64,000 bases of DNA, from the NCBI GenBank assembly GCA_025041175.1, contig JAKCFJ010000001.1, positions 2,683,526 through 2,747,525 on the forward strand, written 5' to 3'. The notes beneath the pieces are model-generated. The model was not told where the DNA came from. It was given only the letters and a program-made list of their open reading frames with translations, and made no database searches. The position numbers and the translations under genes were made by a program. This stretch comes from Halobacteriales archaeon YIM A00010. Its GTDB lineage: Archaea; Halobacteriota; Halobacteria; Halobacteriales; Haloarculaceae. Numbering within the stretch: the stretch's first letter is position 1; each line of letters opens with the position of its first letter. Shown here in pieces: positions 1,406-57,496 of the stretch.

Positions 1406-1501
1406 TACTGTCGGACCTACGGACGGAGTACGACGGAATATTCAGCTGCTGTCTGGCGATTCACCAGCATCCGATAGTCAACCACTGCTGTCCGACAGTA
1501 T
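1405..1501 (+). repeat. MITE-like element, copy 1 (97 bp, + orientation)
   Basis: It begins ATACTGTCGGAC and ends with the exact reverse complement GTCCGACAGTAT, giving 12-bp perfect terminal inverted repeats. The ends read TA-CTG...CAG-TA, consistent with a TA target duplication. The internal sequence is closely similar to copies at 3864, 4989, 31668 and 57338. No gene fits inside. Its first base is the last base of the preceding stop codon. The following 190 bases are A+T-rich and appear gene-free. Confidence 0.9.
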
Positions 1502-3326: not shown

Positions 3327-3863
3327 AGTTGTGCTTAATTACTCATGTCTATGAAAGCGTTTGGGAAGAATACGATTATCGATAATAAATAAACCTGATG
3401 CAAGGTAAATAATAGCCGACATATAAGTGTGTAGGGAGTGTTTCTGGGTTGCATGGTGGGTTATTGAGACAGAAAAAAGTCATATCAACAATCAATTGTT
3501 AGGATAGTCAGTCGATCGGAACCAGCCGAGGCGGTGGCTGTCGCGTCGTCCTAGGCGGTAACACACGATCGTCGACAGGTGCGTGACACCAACACACTAG
3601 TCATATACAATGACACTAGTCTATCCAAACAGGTCGCCTGTCGATGCACCGGTCGATCGACGGACCTAGGGATTACACTGCCCGAACAGCCGGTGTTGAA
3701 ATGGGTAGTATCGCAGCAGCGAGCGATGATTATTCGATACCGATACGATTTCATGAAACAAACACAACGACGTACGATCAACACGGATAGCTTGCGAATC
3801 ACACAGGTAGATACCACAAGCCGTGGGGTTTCGGGGGGAATCGACCGCGCTTGGATGACGGTC
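3327..3863. other. Gene-free stretch upstream of the XRE gene and the tfb region
   Basis: There is no convincing gene. The part next to the XRE start (3327-3500) is A+T-rich and probably holds that gene's promoter. The part from about 3500 to 3863 has open frames on both strands but biased, low-complexity translations without family resemblance. Direct near-repeats of ACACTAGTC occur at about 3590-3625. Together with MITE copy 2 and the tfb leader, the gene-free interval reaches 4081. Confidence 0.5.
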
Positions 3864-3964
3864 ATACTGTCGGACAGAGCCACGGACGGAGTGAGACGGA
3901 ATAGCCAGCTACTGTCTGGCGGATCACCAGCAACTGATATTCGATCACCGCTGTCCGACAGTAT
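3864..3964 (+). repeat. MITE-like element, copy 2 (101 bp, + orientation), upstream of tfb
   Basis: Perfect 12-bp terminal inverted repeats ATACTGTCGGAC / GTCCGACAGTAT, with the same interior as copies 1 and 4 plus a few extra bases after the left end (AGAGCCA in place of CTA). Copy 3 lies in the opposite orientation just after the tfb coding region, so the two bracket the gene. Confidence 0.9.
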
Positions 3965-4081
3965 CAGGAGTCGTCGGGAGCCGTCTCGCACTCGACGTTG
4001 TACCGTCGGCGTTCGGCCGGGATCGACATGGAAACAGTTCGTTCGCCGGTGGGAGTCCGTCAGACCCACGGTTTCATCAGT

Positions 4082-5008
4082 ATGGATATAGCAACACCAT
4101 CCCGGCAAGCGTGTCCCCACTGTGGCGCGACAGTTGTGGCCGATCCCCACCGTGGAGAGACCGTTTGTACCGAGTGTGGGACTGTCGTCGAAGAGGAGGC
4201 TGTCGACCACGGTCCCGAATGGACAGCTTACAGCTCACGGGAGTACGCGCAAGTCGCCCGCACCGGGGGACCGACGTCGATGACGCTCCACGACAAGGGG
4301 TTGTCGACGCTCATCAGTGGCAGGGATCAGGACGCGTCCGGACGCCAGCTCAGCGCGCGCAAGCGCAGCCAGATGCGGCGTCTCCGCACGTGGAACGAGC
4401 GGTGTCGGACACGGGATGCGACAGAGCGCAACCTCAAGCAGGCGTTTTCGGAGGTCAATCGGATGGCGAGCGCGCTCGGGCTACCCCAGTCCGTCCGCGA
4501 GACCGCGAGCGTCATCTACCGGCGGGCCGTCGATGCGGGCCTGTTGATCGGCCGATCGATCGAAGGCGTCGCCACCGCCGCGATGTACGCCGCCGCTCGC
4601 CAGGAGAACATCCCGCGTACGCTCGATGAGGTGACGACGGTCGCTCGTGTCGACCGCAACCGGATCGCACGGGCGTACCGGACCGTTGCCGCCGAGTTGG
4701 GGCTAGCGATCGAACCGGCCGATCCGACGGCGTTCCTCCCCCGTTTTGCGTCCGAGCTGGACTGTACGGAAGCGGTCCATCGACAGGCCCACGACCTCCT
4801 CGAAGCGGTCGCTGGCACCACGTACACGAGTGGGAAGAATCCGGCTGGTTTGGCCGCCGCCGCGCTGTACGCCAGCGCTTGCCTGACCGGCGAACGGATC
4901 ACCCAACAGGAGATCAGCAATGTAGCCGACATCACGAGTATGACGATCCGCGCCCACTACCGGGAGCTGATCGAGCAGGCCCAATCTGACACTGTTGGAC
5001 AGAGGTGA
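4082..5008 (+). CDS. tfb: Transcription initiation factor IIB (TFB paralogue)
   Basis: A 308-aa TFB. TFB binds TBP and the BRE and recruits archaeal RNA polymerase. An N-terminal zinc ribbon (C11, C14, C29, C32) is followed by the B-finger-like segment with HGPEWTAYSS and two cyclin-like repeats (from about 100 and about 200). ATG 4082 is chosen because the residues just before the zinc ribbon start there; an in-frame ATG at 4028 would add 18 unlike-family residues. Haloarchaea carry several tfb genes, and this one lies between two inverted MITE copies. Its last seven codons (from Asp in SDTVGQR, plus the stop) are encoded inside MITE copy 3, so the natural C-terminus was probably altered by insertion. 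Confidence 0.93.
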   Translation: MDIATPSRQACPHCGATVVADPHRGETVCTECGTVVEEEAVDHGPEWTAYSSREYAQVARTGGPTSMTLHDKGLSTLISGRDQDASGRQLSARKRSQMRRLRTWNERCRTRDATERNLKQAFSEVNRMASALGLPQSVRETASVIYRRAVDAGLLIGRSIEGVATAAMYAAARQENIPRTLDEVTTVARVDRNRIARAYRTVAAELGLAIEPADPTAFLPRFASELDCTEAVHRQAHDLLEAVAGTTYTSGKNPAGLAAAALYASACLTGERITQQEISNVADITSMTIRAHYRELIEQAQSDTVGQR

Positions 5009-5089
5009 TTGCATATCGGATACTGGTGAAACGCCAGGCAGCAGCTGGATAGTCCGTCTCAACCTGTCCGTGGCTCTGTCTGACAGTAT
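4989..5089 (-). repeat. MITE-like element, copy 3 (101 bp, - orientation), overlapping the 3' end of tfb
   Basis: The left end is ACACTGTTGGAC (two mismatches to the consensus) and the right end GTCTGACAGTAT (one mismatch). The interior is the reverse complement of copy 2, including its extra bases. The first 20 bp are the last codons and stop of tfb. It is the most diverged copy, suggesting an older insertion or relaxed constraint. Confidence 0.88.
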
Positions 5090-5176
5090 GAGGAGTGCTG
5101 ACCGGTTCCGTGTTCAGCGCGCTGTGAGATCACTTTATCAGATTGATAGGATACTCGATACAGATCGATGCGTGTG

Positions 5177-9292: not shown

Positions 9293-9688
9293 ATGACGCG
9301 AAATATAAGAGATAATGTTGAATTAGTCATCGTCAGTATCCTATCCGCGCTCGTCTATCTGTACGTCGTCCATCCAATCCTTGAAGATATCAACCCCGTT
9401 CTTACCTTCAACTCGAACGGCGTTGGACTAGGTATACTATCGATGGCTATTACGATAACGATACTCTCTGTGGCTTATTCTATAATGAAGCCAGTAATTA
9501 TATTTTTACTATATGCTCCTCTACCATTTATTGATTATATAAGAGATTATGGGTTAGTACCCTTTCTCTCAAATGTTGGATTAACATTTTTAATAATTAT
9601 TCCCAATAAATATTTGCCAGAGAAATACTACCCAGAGAACATCAACGATCTTCAAGAACTGGAGGATCGCTACGATAAAAATCGCTAG
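9293..9688 (+). CDS. Small A+T-rich membrane protein; candidate immunity protein
   Basis: A 131-aa protein with about four hydrophobic segments (about residues 12-29, 46-66, 67-82, 90-105) and a charged C-terminal tail (DLQELEDRYDKNR). It starts 31 bases after the stop of the 701-aa secreted protein. Base composition is markedly A+T-rich, unlike neighbours on either side, suggesting recent transfer. A second, truncated copy of its first 40 codons with a related leader lies at 9835. Position and small membrane-embedded form suit an immunity protein against a secreted effector, but nothing in the sequence proves that role. Confidence 0.6.
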   Translation: MTRNIRDNVELVIVSILSALVYLYVVHPILEDINPVLTFNSNGVGLGILSMAITITILSVAYSIMKPVIIFLLYAPLPFIDYIRDYGLVPFLSNVGLTFLIIIPNKYLPEKYYPENINDLQELEDRYDKNR

Positions 9689-9834: not shown

Positions 9835-9978
9835 ATGGAGAAGAAACCAAGTGAGTACGTCGAATTAGCCATCGTCAGCATTCTATCCGCGCTCGTCTAT
9901 CTGTACGTCGTCCATCCGATCCTGGCTAATGTCGCCCCAATCCTCACCTTCAGCTCGAGCGGAGCCGACGGAAAATGA
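9835..9978 (+). pseudogene. Truncated second copy of the candidate immunity gene
   Basis: It encodes 47 residues and a stop. From residue 9 it matches the gene at 9293 almost residue for residue (VEL-IVSILSALVYLYVVHPIL), then ends after LTFSSSGADGK, so three of the four membrane segments are missing. A 35-base stretch is identical between the two copies, and their upstream bases share TTAGCTACTAC. It may be a decayed tandem duplicate or a silent spare immunity fragment. The next gene (etfA, opposite strand) ends 28 bases later. Confidence 0.8.
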
Positions 9979-26383: not shown

Positions 26384-26461
26384 AACGTCCTGATTGTCGG
26401 TCGCTGTGCTGGGCACTACTTGTTAATGCACAATGGTATTCCGCATTCCATCAGTACCTTT

Positions 26462-26569
26462 ATGAGTGATGGGGAAGGCAACGATAAACGAGGACGCCAG
26501 CCACGAGATGGCGCGTTCATTGAAACGCGCCGGGTGTGCAACCACCCGACGCTGGGTCCTCTGCGGTAG
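26462..26569 (+). CDS. 35-aa ORF, first member of duplicated three-gene cassette (copy 1)
   Basis: It encodes a basic 35-aa peptide (MSDGEGNDKRGRQPRDGAFI, then ETRR and HPTLGPLR at the end), unrecognised. The same ORF is at 42677 with only three residues changed (G/E at position 4, CN to PY at 26-27). TACCTTTA just before the ATG is the same in both copies. Because DNA is conserved too, coding is not proven; it could instead be a leader or structured RNA. Confidence 0.45.
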   Translation: MSDGEGNDKRGRQPRDGAFIETRRVCNHPTLGPLR

Positions 26570-26578
26570 GAGAAACCC

Positions 26579-26725
26579 ATGCTTGGGAACGCAACAGAGA
26601 CACGTAACGGTGTCGCATCGTATCAGAAAGACGAACAGCGCACGCGCTGCCCGGTGTGCGGTCGGCCGGTTCGTACGCGCCTCGACCACCGGATGGGCTG
26701 CCCGCAGGGGCGGTGGTGGCGATGA
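26579..26725 (+). CDS. 48-aa zinc-finger-like protein, second member of cassette copy 1
   Basis: A 48-aa product with a likely metal site C24-x2-C27-x9-H37-x3-C41 (RCPVCGRPV onward) and a conserved end GRWWR. Its stop overlaps the next ATG in a 4-bp ATGA, implying translational coupling. The second copy at 42794 conserves all four ligands while other residues differ, which supports a real protein. Confidence 0.65.
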   Translation: MLGNATETRNGVASYQKDEQRTRCPVCGRPVRTRLDHRMGCPQGRWWR

Positions 26726-27279
26726 GTATACCACTGTTTCAGTTCCGGAATCAGCGGGGCGAGGTGGTGAACCTCTCGGCGGTCGAGGATCGGGACGTGG
26801 TGTCGAAAGCGGAGCTGTACCACATCATCGACGTGGGTGAAGGATTGTGGTGTCGCCCGTGCCAATCGACGGGCTGTGCCCACGCCACCCAGATCGAACA
26901 GATACTGGCGACGGCGGGGCTTGGCAGGACTCGAACGGGCGGGTACGAGGAGTTGCCGGGCATCGCGCGGTTCACGCGCTACTGCGCCACCGATGAGACG
27001 ATCATCGAATGTTGGTTCGACAACGGCGCGTGCGCCCGATTCCACGAACAGCGCGATGGTGACGTGGTTCAGTCCGTGTTCACGCCCGATGATTCGCGAG
27101 AACCGGCCGAGATGACCGAGAAATCCGACGTAGACAGCGCGCCCGCCTGTCTGGTCGACACGCTGGTAACCTACTGCAAGTACCGCCAGCGCGGTGATCT
27201 CAATGGCTTGCGCCAGCGCCATCCCGAACTGGCCCGGGTCGTCGGTGATACCGCTGTTGCACCTACCACCGACGACTAA
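26722..27279 (+). CDS. 185-aa protein of unknown function, third member of cassette copy 1
   Basis: I do not recognise the family. Visible features are a strand-rich start (PLFQFRNQRGEVVNLS), a possible metal site C44-x2-C47-x4-C52-x-H54 (GLWCRPCQSTGCAH), and further Cys in RFTRYCA, IECWFDNGAC and PACLVDTLVTYC. It is acidic at the end. The homologue at 43038 is very similar throughout, with all Cys kept. It overlaps the zinc-finger ORF by 4 bp, so the two probably act together. Confidence 0.7.
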   Translation: MSIPLFQFRNQRGEVVNLSAVEDRDVVSKAELYHIIDVGEGLWCRPCQSTGCAHATQIEQILATAGLGRTRTGGYEELPGIARFTRYCATDETIIECWFDNGACARFHEQRDGDVVQSVFTPDDSREPAEMTEKSDVDSAPACLVDTLVTYCKYRQRGDLNGLRQRHPELARVVGDTAVAPTTDD

Positions 27280-30291: not shown

Positions 30292-31668
30292 ATGGACCCC
30301 AGAGACCAGATCGTGTTTGGCACCGACGGCTGGCGTGACACGCTCGATGCGTTCACGGAGCCACGGGTTCGGATCGTCGCCCAAGCGGTCGCGTCGTACA
30401 CCGAAACTGGAACGGTTGCGGTCGGATACGACGCTCGTGAGGGGTCGCGTGGGTTCGCTGACGCGGTCGCCGACGTGCTCACCGACAACGGGATCGACGT
30501 GATAATCAGCGAACGCGACTGTCCGACGCCGGTGCTCGCGTGGACGCTTACGGACCGGGATTTCGACGGCGGGGTGATGATCACTGCGAGCCACAACCCG
30601 CCGGAGTACAACGGTATCAAGTTCCTTCCACCGGAGGGAGCGCCCGCGCTTCCGGCGGTGACGGACGAACTCAGTGAGCTGCTGGCAGAGCCGACCGCCG
30701 TGGCCGAATCCGAGCGCGGGGATCGACACGAGGACACGTTCACGACCGCCTACGGACAGCGCGCGTTCGAGTTCGTGGATACCGAACTGGATCTGGAGGG
30801 CATGGCAATCGCGTACGACGCAATGCACGGCAGCGGCCGGGGCGTCACCGACGCCCTGTTAGCGGAGGCGGGCGCGACCGTCGAGCGCCGCCGCTGTGAA
30901 CGCGATCCGGCGTTCGGGGGGACGCCGCCCGAACCGAGCGCGGACCGACTCGCGTCGCTCACCGAACGCGTCACGTCCGGTGACGCGGCGCTCGGAATCG
31001 CCAACGACGGCGACGCAGACCGGATCGCAGTCATCACGCCCGAGCGGGGCTATCTCGATCCAAACCTCTACTACGCGGTGCTGTACGAGTATCTCCTCGA
31101 AACCGCGTCCGGTCCGGCTGTTCGGACGGTGTCGACCACGCACCTCATCGACCGCATCGGGGCCGCCCACGACGAGCGCGTGATCGAGACGCCGGTCGGC
31201 TTCAAATGGGTTGCCCGGGCGATGGACGAGCACGACGCGATCGTCGGGGGAGAAGAAAGCGGCGGCTACGGGCTCACAACGCACCTCCGGAACAAAGACG
31301 GCGTGTTGCTCGCGCTGTTGACGGCCGCCGCTCACGCCGACCGACCGCTCGACGACCGGGCCGACGACATCACCGAAACGTACGGCGAAATCCACCAGGA
31401 CCGGCTGAGTGTCGCCTGTCCCGACGAGCGAAAACCCCGCGTGCTCTCCGAACTTGAGGGGGTCATCCCCGACCGCGTCGCTGGCGAGCCGGTGGCGTCG
31501 ATCGGAACGGGCGACGGCTTCAAAATCAACCTCGAGGACGGCTCGTGGCTGCTCGTCAGGCCGAGCGGCACCGAGCCAAAACTCCGCGTCTACGCCGAAG
31601 CCGATTCGGACGAGCGCGTCAACGAACTGTTGGCGGCCGGCCGGGATCTCACCGAGCCGCTGGTTTGA
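30292..31668 (+). CDS. Phosphoglucomutase/phosphomannomutase family protein
   Basis: A 458-aa alpha-D-phosphohexomutase. The phosphoserine loop is TASHNPPEYNG (Ser at about residue 100), the metal loop DGDADRIAV, the sugar-specificity loop GGEESGGYG, and the phosphate-binding loop RPSGTEPKLRVY. Short opening FGTDGWR. It interconverts hexose 1- and 6-phosphates (glucose, mannose or amino sugar; not distinguishable here). Its stop codon's last base is the first base of MITE copy 4. Confidence 0.93.
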   Translation: MDPRDQIVFGTDGWRDTLDAFTEPRVRIVAQAVASYTETGTVAVGYDAREGSRGFADAVADVLTDNGIDVIISERDCPTPVLAWTLTDRDFDGGVMITASHNPPEYNGIKFLPPEGAPALPAVTDELSELLAEPTAVAESERGDRHEDTFTTAYGQRAFEFVDTELDLEGMAIAYDAMHGSGRGVTDALLAEAGATVERRRCERDPAFGGTPPEPSADRLASLTERVTSGDAALGIANDGDADRIAVITPERGYLDPNLYYAVLYEYLLETASGPAVRTVSTTHLIDRIGAAHDERVIETPVGFKWVARAMDEHDAIVGGEESGGYGLTTHLRNKDGVLLALLTAAAHADRPLDDRADDITETYGEIHQDRLSVACPDERKPRVLSELEGVIPDRVAGEPVASIGTGDGFKINLEDGSWLLVRPSGTEPKLRVYAEADSDERVNELLAAGRDLTEPLV

Positions 31669-31764
31669 TACTGTCGGACCGACGGACGGAGTGAGACGGA
31701 ATATCCATCTGCTGTCTGGCGGTTCACCAGCAGCCGATATTCAATCATCCCTGTCCGACAGTAT
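31668..31764 (+). repeat. MITE-like element, copy 4 (97 bp, + orientation)
   Basis: Perfect 12-bp terminal inverted repeats ATACTGTCGGAC / GTCCGACAGTAT. It lies between two convergent genes and touches both: its first base completes the stop of the phosphomutase, and its right 24 bases encode the last residues and stop of the acetyltransferase on the other strand. Confidence 0.9.
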
Positions 31765-32133
31765 GACCCCTCGCCACCGGTCTCCCGTCCGTTCGATGTC
31801 GAAGCCCAGCGACTCGTAAAACTCGCTCACGTCGGGTCTGAACGCGGCTGTGAGTCGTCCGCGCGCGCTGGCGGTTTCCACGAGCGCCGTGCCAATGCCC
31901 TGTCCGCGCCGGTTGGGTCGTACCGCGACCGCCTCGATGTGGGTGCCATCGAGCACGAGCGCCCCGAGGATCCGATCCTCCTCGGTGGCGACCAGCACGG
32001 CGTCCTCCTCGAATCGGCCTCTGACGGTCTCCACAGCCACGTCGAGCAACGCTCCCTCGAGAATCGCCATGACACGCGGGAGATCCACTTCTCGGGCCGG
32101 GTGAACGACGATCCGGTTGGATGGCTCGGTCAC
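31741..32133 (-). CDS. GNAT family N-acetyltransferase
   Basis: A 130-aa protein with acetyl-CoA motif AVRPNRRGQGIGTALVETA at about 70-88 and the C-terminal FYESLGFDIERTG. It begins with GTG sharing one base with the samp2 stop, so it is in an operon with it. The substrate is unknown. The C-terminal residues after GV (ILSDRDD and stop) are encoded by MITE copy 4, so the tail is not native. Confidence 0.85.
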   Translation of the reverse strand: MTEPSNRIVVHPAREVDLPRVMAILEGALLDVAVETVRGRFEEDAVLVATEEDRILGALVLDGTHIEAVAVRPNRRGQGIGTALVETASARGRLTAAFRPDVSEFYESLGFDIERTGDRWRGVILSDRDD

Positions 32134-32333
32134 TATCCACCTTTGATGAGCCGGAGCACCCGGACGCGTTCGGTTTCGACCGTTCCGTCGTTGGGGACCG
32201 GCTGGCCGTCGACCAGTACAGTCGCCTCGTGTGGACTCAATCCGACCGCAGCCAGGAGATCGCCGTAGGTTGCCGCTGCTTCCAGATCGAGCTCCCGTGT
32301 TTCCTTCCCCACGATCTCGGCCGTGACGCGCAT
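32133..32333 (-). CDS. samp2: Ubiquitin-like small archaeal modifier protein SAMP2
   Basis: A 66-aa beta-grasp protein (starts MRVTAEIVGKETRELDL) ending in LRLIKGG, with the C-terminal diglycine needed for activation by the E1-like UbaA. SAMP2 forms isopeptide bonds to protein lysines and also serves as a sulfur carrier for tRNA 2-thiolation. Length and the block LSPHEATVLVDGQPVPNDG match Haloferax SAMP2. It is 37 bases downstream of the thioesterase and overlaps the acetyltransferase. Confidence 0.92.
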   Translation of the reverse strand: MRVTAEIVGKETRELDLEAAATYGDLLAAVGLSPHEATVLVDGQPVPNDGTVETERVRVLRLIKGG

Positions 32334-42495: not shown

Positions 42496-42676
42496 CGTGG
42501 TCTCGAATCGATTGGAGTTCGGTGCCACCGCACAAAACACCCGTGGCACGGAGCCCGGACGCGTGATTGAGGGATGAGATGCTCGCACGAGTTATCATTC
42601 ACACCGGAGCCAGCGTCCTACAGCCTCGAAATATGTGACAATGATATATAATAATGTTCCTTCCATCAGTACCTTT

Positions 42677-42784
42677 ATGAGTGATGAGGAAGGCAACGAT
42701 AAACGAGGACGCCAGCCACGAGATGGCGCGTTCATTGAAACGCGCCGGGTGCCTTACCACCCGACGCTGGGTCCTCTGCGGTAA
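42677..42784 (+). CDS. 35-aa ORF, first member of cassette copy 2
   Basis: It differs from the ORF at 26462 by three residues and has an almost identical leader ending TACCTTT before the ATG. It is unrecognised. Conservation of DNA and peptide are equally high, so it could be a small protein or a non-coding leader. Confidence 0.45.
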   Translation: MSDEEGNDKRGRQPRDGAFIETRRVPYHPTLGPLR

Positions 42785-42793
42785 GAGCAACCC

Positions 42794-42940
42794 ATGACTG
42801 GGAATGAATCAGAGACACGTAACGGTGTCGCATCGTATCAGAAAAACGAACAGCGCCAGCGCTGCCCGGTGTGTGGCCGGCCGGTTCGGTCGCGCCTCGA
42901 ACACCGCATCGGGTGTCCGTTGGGGCGGTGGTGGCGATGA
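42794..42940 (+). CDS. 48-aa zinc-finger-like protein, second member of cassette copy 2
   Basis: It keeps the C24-x2-C27-x9-H37-x3-C41 pattern and the GRWWR end of the copy at 26579, with about ten substitutions elsewhere. In this copy element E3 follows the stop, so the 4-bp coupling to the third ORF has been lost. Confidence 0.65.
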   Translation: MTGNESETRNGVASYQKNEQRQRCPVCGRPVRSRLEHRIGCPLGRWWR

Positions 42941-42944
42941 CACT

Positions 42945-43028
42945 CCACCTTTTTTGCGTTCGGGTGGGCGTCGCCCACCACTCACGCAAAAAACGTGGGC
43001 GAAAAAAGCCGCTCGCTTCGCTCGCGGA
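42945..43028 (-). repeat. Hairpin-rich G+C element E3 inside cassette copy 2
   Basis: This is the reverse orientation of E1 and E2: CCACCTTTTTTGCG, hairpin GGTGGGCG-tc-GCCCACC type, ACTCACGCAAAAAACGTGGG, GAAAAAAGCCGCTCGC. It sits exactly between the second and third ORFs. Left flank GTGGCGATGACACTCCAC and right flank GTGGGAATGACGCTACCG look like a duplicated target carrying the start codon. Confidence 0.8.
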
Positions 43029-43037
43029 GGAGTGGGA

Positions 43038-43592
43038 ATGACGCTACCGCTGTTTCAGTTCCGGGATCGGCAGGGTGAGGTCGTGAACCTCTCGGCCATC
43101 GAGGATCGGGACGTGGTGTCGAAGGCGGAGCTGTACCACAGCATCGACGTGGGTGAAGGGTTGTGGTGTAGACCGTGCCAGTCCACTGGTTGTGCGCACG
43201 CCACCCAGATCGAGCAGATACTCGCGACCGCCGGGCTTGCCACCACAACGGGCGGGTACGAGGAGTTGCCGGGCATCGCGCGGTTCACGCGCTATTGCGC
43301 CGTGGGCGAGACGATCATCGAATGCTGGTTCGACAACGGCGCATGCGTCCGCTTTCACGAACAGCGCGATGGCGACGTGATGCAGTCCGTGTTCACGCCC
43401 GATGACGCACGCGAACCGGCCGCCATGACCGAGAAACCGGATGTCGAGAGCGCTCCGGCCTGCCTGGTCGACACGTTGGTAACCTACTGCCAGTATCGAC
43501 AGCGCGGCGATCTTGCTGGTTTGCGCCAGCGCCACCCCGAACTAGCAGGCGTCGTCGGTGCGGCCGCCGCTGCACACACCACCGACGACTGA
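43038..43592 (+). CDS. 184-aa protein of unknown function, third member of cassette copy 2
   Basis: It is very similar along its whole length to the protein at 26722. All Cys are kept, including the GLWCRPCQSTGCAH site. One residue is deleted near GLATTTGGYEE. ATG 43038 is the equivalent start; it appears to have been preserved or recreated when E3 inserted. The family is unrecognised. Confidence 0.7.
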   Translation: MTLPLFQFRDRQGEVVNLSAIEDRDVVSKAELYHSIDVGEGLWCRPCQSTGCAHATQIEQILATAGLATTTGGYEELPGIARFTRYCAVGETIIECWFDNGACVRFHEQRDGDVMQSVFTPDDAREPAAMTEKPDVESAPACLVDTLVTYCQYRQRGDLAGLRQRHPELAGVVGAAAAAHTTDD

Positions 43593-56768: not shown

Positions 56769-57338
56769 ATGGGTTCAGTAAACATCGTCGTCGGTCTCTC
56801 CGGCGTCGGGAAAACGACAGTGATGGAAAAAGCGATCGAACGGGCTGAAACCGATCATCAACTCATTAACTACGGCGATCGGATGCTCGACGTCGCTACG
56901 GAGCGGAATCTGGTCGAGAACCGCGACGAGATGAAAGACATCGAGAGCGGCACGTACAAAGAGATTCAGATGGATGCCGCCGAATCGATCGTCAACGATT
57001 CCGAGGACGGTGACGTGATCGTTGACACCCACGCCGCAATCAAATCGCCGTTCGGGTATATCCCTGGCCTTCCGAAGTGGACGCTGGAAAACCTCGCTCC
57101 CGATAAAATCATCATCATCGACATCGACGCCGAAACGATCGTCGAGCGGCGTGAAGAAGACCTGGAACGGGAACGAACCGCCGATCCCGTCGAGGCGATC
57201 GAGGAATACCGGGAGGTGGCTCGTGAGATGGCCGCAGCAGGGTCGGTACACACTGGTGCGTATCTGAAAGTCATCCGGAACGAGGACGAGAAGGTCGATG
57301 AAGCGGCCGAGCAGCTCCTTACGACGCTCAACAACTAA
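56769..57338 (+). CDS. adkA: Adenylate kinase, archaeal type
   Basis: A 189-aa protein with P-loop IVVGLSGVGKTTVMEKA at the start, NYGDRMLDVA for AMP binding, and VDTHAAIKSPFGYIPGLP, all in the order of the archaeal trimeric Adk rather than the bacterial form. It interconverts ATP + AMP and 2 ADP. MITE copy 5 starts at the last base of its stop codon. Confidence 0.93.
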   Translation: MGSVNIVVGLSGVGKTTVMEKAIERAETDHQLINYGDRMLDVATERNLVENRDEMKDIESGTYKEIQMDAAESIVNDSEDGDVIVDTHAAIKSPFGYIPGLPKWTLENLAPDKIIIIDIDAETIVERREEDLERERTADPVEAIEEYREVAREMAAAGSVHTGAYLKVIRNEDEKVDEAAEQLLTTLNN

Positions 57339-57434
57339 TACTGTCGGACAGGGGTGATTGCGTATCAGATGCTGGTGAACCGCCAGACAGCAGCTGGCTA
57401 TTCCGTCGTACTCCGTCCGTCGGTCCGACAGTGT
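57338..57434 (-). repeat. MITE-like element, copy 5 (97 bp, - orientation)
   Basis: The left end is ATACTGTCGGAC and the right end GTCCGACAGTGT (one mismatch). The interior is the reverse complement of copies 1 and 4. Its first base is the last base of the adenylate kinase stop. Confidence 0.9.
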
Positions 57435-57496
57435 AAGTCGCACGCGTCCAACGTGAAACGCGGACAGTCAGGACGAAACCGTGTCTGAGATCCTCG

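Follow-up and report, generated by a model that had tools for sequence, protein, structure and literature searches.

A haloarchaeal family of TSA-duplicating MITEs is enriched at the stop codons of genes

Copies of a short haloarchaeal MITE lie at the ends of genes, many of them exactly at a stop codon. With a probability of roughly 0.8, we consider that these gene-end copies are best explained by a duplicated target that matches TGA, together with loss of copies from coding DNA. The window, which is the whole stretch of DNA analyzed (64,000 nucleotides; G000:C1:2683526-2747525), comes from the 5.97 Mb, seven-contig genome of the haloarchaeon Halobacteriales archaeon YIM A00010 and contains five copies of a 95-99 bp repeat with ends TACTGTCGGAC...GTCCGACAGTA. 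The copies and the two genes next to copy 4 are listed here in window positions:

1406..1500, plus strand: copy 1, element proper; duplication TGA at 1403-1405 and 1501-1503
3865..3963, plus strand: copy 2, element proper, intergenic; duplication TCA at 3862-3864 and 3964-3966
4990..5088, minus strand: copy 3, element proper; duplication TGA at 4987-4989 and 5089-5091
30292..31668, plus strand: phosphoglucomutase/phosphomannomutase gene, PGM_PMM domains I-IV, with orthologues in relatives
31666..31668, plus strand: left target duplication of copy 4, TGA, the phosphomutase stop codon
31669..31763, plus strand: copy 4 of MITE family A, element proper, 95 bp, ends TACTGTCGGAC...GTCCGACAGTA
31741..32133, minus strand: GNAT acetyltransferase gene, its last codons and stop (31741-31764) within copy 4 and its duplication
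31764..31766, plus strand: right target duplication of copy 4, TGA
57339..57433, minus strand: copy 5, element proper; duplication TAA at 57336-57338 and 57434-57436

At copy 4, the phosphomutase and GNAT genes converge, with the element between them. The GNAT frame (31741-32133, minus strand) matched PF13508 at 3.5e-12, while the overlapping frame 31745-32140 had no Pfam match. The element sits where the original prediction had placed it, and the 24 bases 31741-31764 read ILSDRDD and a stop on the minus strand. The same prediction held that the first base of copy 4 completes the phosphomutase TGA; that A is part of the target duplication and not of the element. Direct triplets flank all five window copies (on the plus strand TGA, TCA, TGA, TGA, and TAA for copies 1 to 5), and thus the phosphomutase stop is target DNA that was copied at 31764-31766. 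Nor was this TGA made by the element, since relatives without it end the gene at the same codon. The idea that copy 4 supplies both gene ends therefore survives for the GNAT tail, which comes from the element, but not for the phosphomutase stop, which is the duplicated target. Among the 129 family-A copies examined, copy 4 alone forms the end of both neighbors.

Comparison with relatives revealed the empty site. In six genomes of the same genus, the copy 4 position is unoccupied and the GNAT gene lies directly downstream of the phosphomutase gene (72-88% identity), in convergent orientation; G040 and G041, two of these genomes, share an identical junction. In every one of the six, the phosphomutase C-terminus is EPLV or GPLV and the stop codon has the same position, being TAA in two and TGA in four. 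At one relative locus (L245), the GNAT gene overlaps the end of the phosphomutase gene in antisense with its tail, GVTPTAR*; when the flanks of copy 4 were joined by eye, the matching tail GVKPAAR* resulted. Insertion of copy 4 left the phosphomutase unchanged, swapped five GNAT tail residues for seven encoded by the element, and parted two overlapping gene ends.

That four of the five window copies lie at gene ends was borne out. The duplicated triplet is the stop codon at copies 1, 4, and 5: the left TGA of copy 1 (1403-1405) ends the ORF at 893-1405, and the left TAA of copy 5 (57336-57338) ends a kinase-like gene (56769-57338). Copy 3 gives a TFIIB-family gene (4136-5008) its stop (5006-5008) from within, with the tail DTVGQR*. 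Orthologous sites of copies 1, 3, and 5 were not recovered, as synteny with two relatives ended short of them, and a protein scan with the copy 5 kinase for such a site yielded no match. The ORF that ends at copy 1 encodes a helix-turn-helix protein (HTH_32 and HTH_33, domains also found in IS630 transposases). Elsewhere in the window are a 114-nt direct repeat (9307-9420 and 9849-9962; 81% identical, 542 nt apart) and diverged long duplicates (26446-27233 and 42661-43546; 87-91%, in several blocks about 16.3 kb apart). A search of the window with Rfam matched tRNA alone.

We characterized the family in 91 stretches around at least 117 listed copies (730 kb, about 12% of the genome). These hold 129 family-A copies and 23 copies of family B, which comprises other elements with the same outer ends. 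A pattern that requires both ends found at least 100 copies in the genome, and the reversed control found 0. The element proper is 93-99 bp in all 129 family-A copies (95, 98, or 99 bp in 118), and its terminal inverted repeats consist of 12 conserved pairs with ATACTGTCGGAC ends. Identical direct triplets flank 81 of the 129 copies (TCA 48, TGA 31, TAA 2), compared to an average of 34.6 and at most 48 when left and right triplets were paired at random. Inverted pairs, with TGA on one side and TCA on the other, occurred at only 5 of the 129, which marks the triplet as duplicated target DNA rather than a piece of the inverted repeat. Among the remaining 48 copies, 19 are flanked by TA at both ends, as a duplication of 2 bp; neither type of duplication fits 29 of the 129. 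At sites other than stops, the base preceding TSA is C in 55%, T in 27%, and A in 2%. Since C or T precedes TSA and A is nearly excluded, the target is close to a palindromic YTSAR (where S is C or G). By the features tested, these elements are a MITE superfamily with TSA duplication: they are short and carry no transposase gene, they have terminal inverted repeats and a target duplication, and they are present in many dispersed copies, with the orthologous site of copy 4 empty in six relatives.

Related elements were also present. Family-B elements, mostly 109 bp, have their outer ten bases in common with family A, and a one-end pattern matched 56 times genome-wide; at C1:1005190-1005408, one copy follows another almost head to tail. 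A C-type MITE of 108 bp, with ends TAGGGACTGTTGTG...CACAACAGTCCCTA and the same TSA duplication, was found at L036, L058, L096, L099 (for example, L099:1968-2075), and other loci. At 14 sites, A or B elements are inserted at one same internal TGA of this C-type MITE.

We determined how often potential targets are occupied, using genes called by a codon-usage script trained on these sequences rather than by annotation (84% of the window is coding). As the loci were picked because they hold an element, all occupancy rates are inflated alike. Fourteen sites with one common flank were collapsed to one for the analyses of stop formation, flanking bases, and gap size, and were left uncollapsed in the counts of reconstructed empty sites and per-site occupancy. 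On reconstructed empty sites, 25 of 81 triplet copies fell exactly at a stop codon, 6 within a gene, and 50 between genes. Per TGA/TCA site, elements of families A and B occupied 26 of 350 stop codons (7.4%). On the 3′ side of genes, occupancy was 7/107 at less than 10 nt, 5/225 at 10-30 nt, 13/307 at 30-60 nt, 7/257 at 60-100 nt, 5/380 at 100-200 nt, and 1/474 beyond, a range of 1-6.5% within 200 nt downstream of stops. Occupancy was about 1% on the 5′ side (22/2,418 in all) and 0.05% in coding sequence (6/12,157). Compared to other noncoding TGA/TCA sites (60/4,168), the odds ratio for stop sites was 5.5 (Fisher p 5e-10). After control for flanking bases, and with other noncoding sites as the reference, the odds were 6.3 at stops, 2.3 from +1 to +60, and 0.08 inside genes. 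In both data sets together, where the other-organism part consists of the matches listed, 41 of 586 TGA stops were occupied versus 2 of 417 TAA and TAG stops.

The elements regenerate the stops that they meet in two ways. Besides copy 4, the stop is formed by the duplicated triplet alone at 30 sampled copies and is supplied from inside the element alone at 10. Since most internal tails are either xTVGQR* (or a similar form) or ILSDRDD*, an early stop lies near either end of the element.

These features probably arise as follows. A transposase supplied in trans would insert the non-autonomous MITE at YTSAR or at TA, duplicating the 3-bp TSA in the former case and 2 bp in the latter. Read on one of its two strands, TSA is TGA, the stop codon used most in these genomes. 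Insertion into a TGA stop would be nearly silent because the duplicated TGA would end the gene, leaving the remaining element in the 3′ untranslated region. Where an insertion lies a few codons short of the stop, the ends of the element would soon supply one (xTVGQR*, ILSDRDD*). Insertions within genes would be purged, and those near starts partly purged. With purging and silent stops combined, surviving copies would accumulate at stop codons and just downstream. This scheme accounts for most of the pattern, and we infer that selection acts as the filter.

The pattern was replicated in other organisms. A paired-end scan of 84,980 species genomes recovered at least 75 loci in at least 18 named organisms, the hosts among the matches listed including Halobellus (such as Halobellus inordinatus), Halococcus (such as Halococcus morrhuae), Natronorubrum, Halomarina, Halostella, Natronolimnohabitans, and uncultured Halobacteriales. 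Among the matches listed, 77 elements are 74-100 bp long; a TNA triplet flanks 55 of the 77, and 15 of the 77 fit neither duplication type. Also among the matches listed, 19 of 48 independent TCA/TGA cases lie exactly at stop codons; occupancy was 19/298 at stop sites versus 23/2,360 at other noncoding sites (p 2e-8), with 15/1,100 on the 3′ side as a whole, 8/1,260 on the 5′ side, and 6/8,658 in coding sequence. Enrichment near stop codons, which the original prediction had named as its own test, is therefore present here and in 18 other organisms among the matches listed. The ends were detected in 126 of 392 sampled genomes of the order, with most reversed controls at zero, and at least 20 end matches each were found in our genome and ten others of the order. 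Family A itself was not found in any of the 145 other genomes of its family in a search at E 1e-6; a Halalkalicoccus jeotgali plasmid carries a relative (85%), and a genome of another family has one A-like copy (L169). The distribution is patchy, like that of mobile DNA.

We considered whether the coincidence with stops has other origins. With flanking bases controlled, the stop codon is favored about 2.8-fold (odds ratio) over the next 60 nt downstream (z 3.7), and TGA stops by short gaps are occupied about three times as often as those by long gaps (30/253 versus 10/261, p 8e-4). Both results would be expected if transposition were steered to gene ends before selection, by a stalled polymerase, supercoiling between convergent genes, or translation termination. 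However, in gaps with room the stop excess shrinks to 12/312 versus 17/846 (p 0.09), the gradient between 3′ and 5′ sides is what selection predicts, and in intergenic C-type MITEs, A and B elements repeatedly take one TGA that is not a called stop. We therefore regard such steering as highly improbable. The earlier suggestion that the elements target termination regions holds as far as enrichment goes, but recognition of those regions accounts for the data less well than a duplicated target that coincides with TGA, combined with genic loss. An artefact of reading frames that chance on a stop inside the repeat might apply to the 11 sampled copies, including copies 3 and 4, that supply a stop from inside, but is extremely unlikely overall, as most coincidences come through the duplicated triplet, already present in the reconstructed empty site, and the stop codon at copy 4 is at the same position in six relatives without the insertion.

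The elements might instead be bidirectional terminators or insulators selected at gene ends, chiefly between near-touching convergent genes. TGA stops at convergent gaps of 0-40 nt have the highest occupancy (16/84; p 4e-5 versus all other TGA stops), and there are 12 elements in 49 such junctions here and 11 in 36 in other organisms among the matches listed. Per TSA site, these tight gaps are over-occupied relative to convergent gaps of more than 100 nt in both data sets (p 8e-7 here; p 7e-7 in other organisms among the matches listed). However, when counted by junction, occupancy is the same in tight as in roomy convergent gaps (p 0.80 here and 0.63 among the matches listed), tight convergent stops do not differ significantly from tandem stops with gaps of 41-100 nt (16/84 versus 9/79, p 0.20), and the convergent share of 11/25 versus 216/547 background junctions indicates no overall preference. 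Orientation relative to the gene is also random (13 same, 12 opposite). The 12-bp terminal inverted repeat could fold as a hairpin on either strand (z-scores for copy 4, -3.9 and -4.9), and the available part of a Haloferax reporter study describes a hairpin sequence that ended 59% of transcripts, compared to 95% for a T-stretch, and a haloarchaeal terminator criterion of about five T before the 3′ end (PMC7237163). The longest T-run in the elements is at most four on both strands of all 129 copies, and no terminator-like site was detected within 31400-32200. Only the terminal-repeat pairs are conserved, and these are nearly invariant; the interior showed no covariation (term 0.08; 40 of 129 copies aligned), and an interior hairpin as a conserved RNA was rejected on this basis. 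With random orientation, no convergent preference, no covariation, and no run of five T, the proposal that the copies have been retained as bidirectional terminators is unsupported, and a terminator or insulator role, judged from sequence, would be improbable.

Simple permissiveness, in which gene ends merely tolerate insertion, does not predict the short-gap excess. For tandem and divergent pairs, per-site occupancy likewise tends to drop as the gap lengthens, and part of the effect may stem from dilution with dubious genes or from copies decaying in long gaps. The excess at tight convergent junctions is not fully explained in this way, which leaves an opening for a functional or targeting explanation. 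Conceivably, elements are steered to or kept at tight gene ends, such that haloarchaea put a buffer or bidirectional terminator of about 100 bp between near-touching convergent genes, with this junction class filled independently by elements of differing interiors in many genera; we consider this rather unlikely.

Duplication of TGA-matching targets with loss from genes presupposes a transposase that acts in trans. No autonomous parent was found in 30 loci of the 38 DDE_Tnp_1 matches in our genome, among DDE_3 matches or leftover end patterns, or in 20 loci of other genomes, and a scan of 347 loci for paired ends gave only chance or MITE-MITE pairs. Two candidates were rejected: a decayed IS630-type transposase (L080, C1:2562700-2563860) merely contains nested B-type elements, and in a 1,419-bp unit of another genome, two short elements enclose other genes, LysW/LysX-like by eye. 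The IS1031 and IS427 groups of the IS5 family make 3-bp TNA and 2-bp TA duplications, and the IS5 target is YTAR. The TSA or TA duplications of our elements agree with those of the IS1031 and IS427 groups, and an IS5-like transposase may be the mobilizer. However, the loci inspected contain no IS5-type DDE transposase between these ends. As no transposase with these ends was found, we assign no family and do not claim membership in IS5.

Several known repeats resemble these elements. According to the accessible part of one account (PMC3119063), the MITEs of Haloquadratum walsbyi are likewise short, non-coding, and mobilized in trans, with terminal inverted repeats, target duplications, and many copies, and their parent transposase is sometimes not functional in the genome. 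They differ in that all families total 55 per strain, and that part of the account mentions neither TSA duplication nor insertion at stop codons; our comparison is by description and not by end sequence. SMR-A of Haloquadratum, as described there, is also about 110 bp with terminal inverted repeats and recurs at a single insertion point within other mobile repeats, as A and B elements do in the C-type MITE, but SMRs are reported to lack the target duplication that our elements make (PMC3119063). Bacterial SPRITEs are small extragenic repeats for which terminator-like sequences are reported (PMC10969869), and bacterial REPs are small extragenic repeats too, described as palindromes of 20-40 bp (PMC3733652). 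Unlike SPRITEs and REPs, our elements have no T-tract and have a clear target duplication. In the literature searched, mostly non-subscription, no MITEs that sit at stop codons and duplicate TSA were described.

By rewriting TGA, a 3-bp duplication would make the stop codon a safe place to land, a simple reason for repeats to crowd at gene ends. This provides a neutral baseline to subtract before gene-end repeats are named terminators. In addition, elements give genes new C-terminal tails and come between convergent genes that overlap, and their excess at tight junctions is a testable lead.
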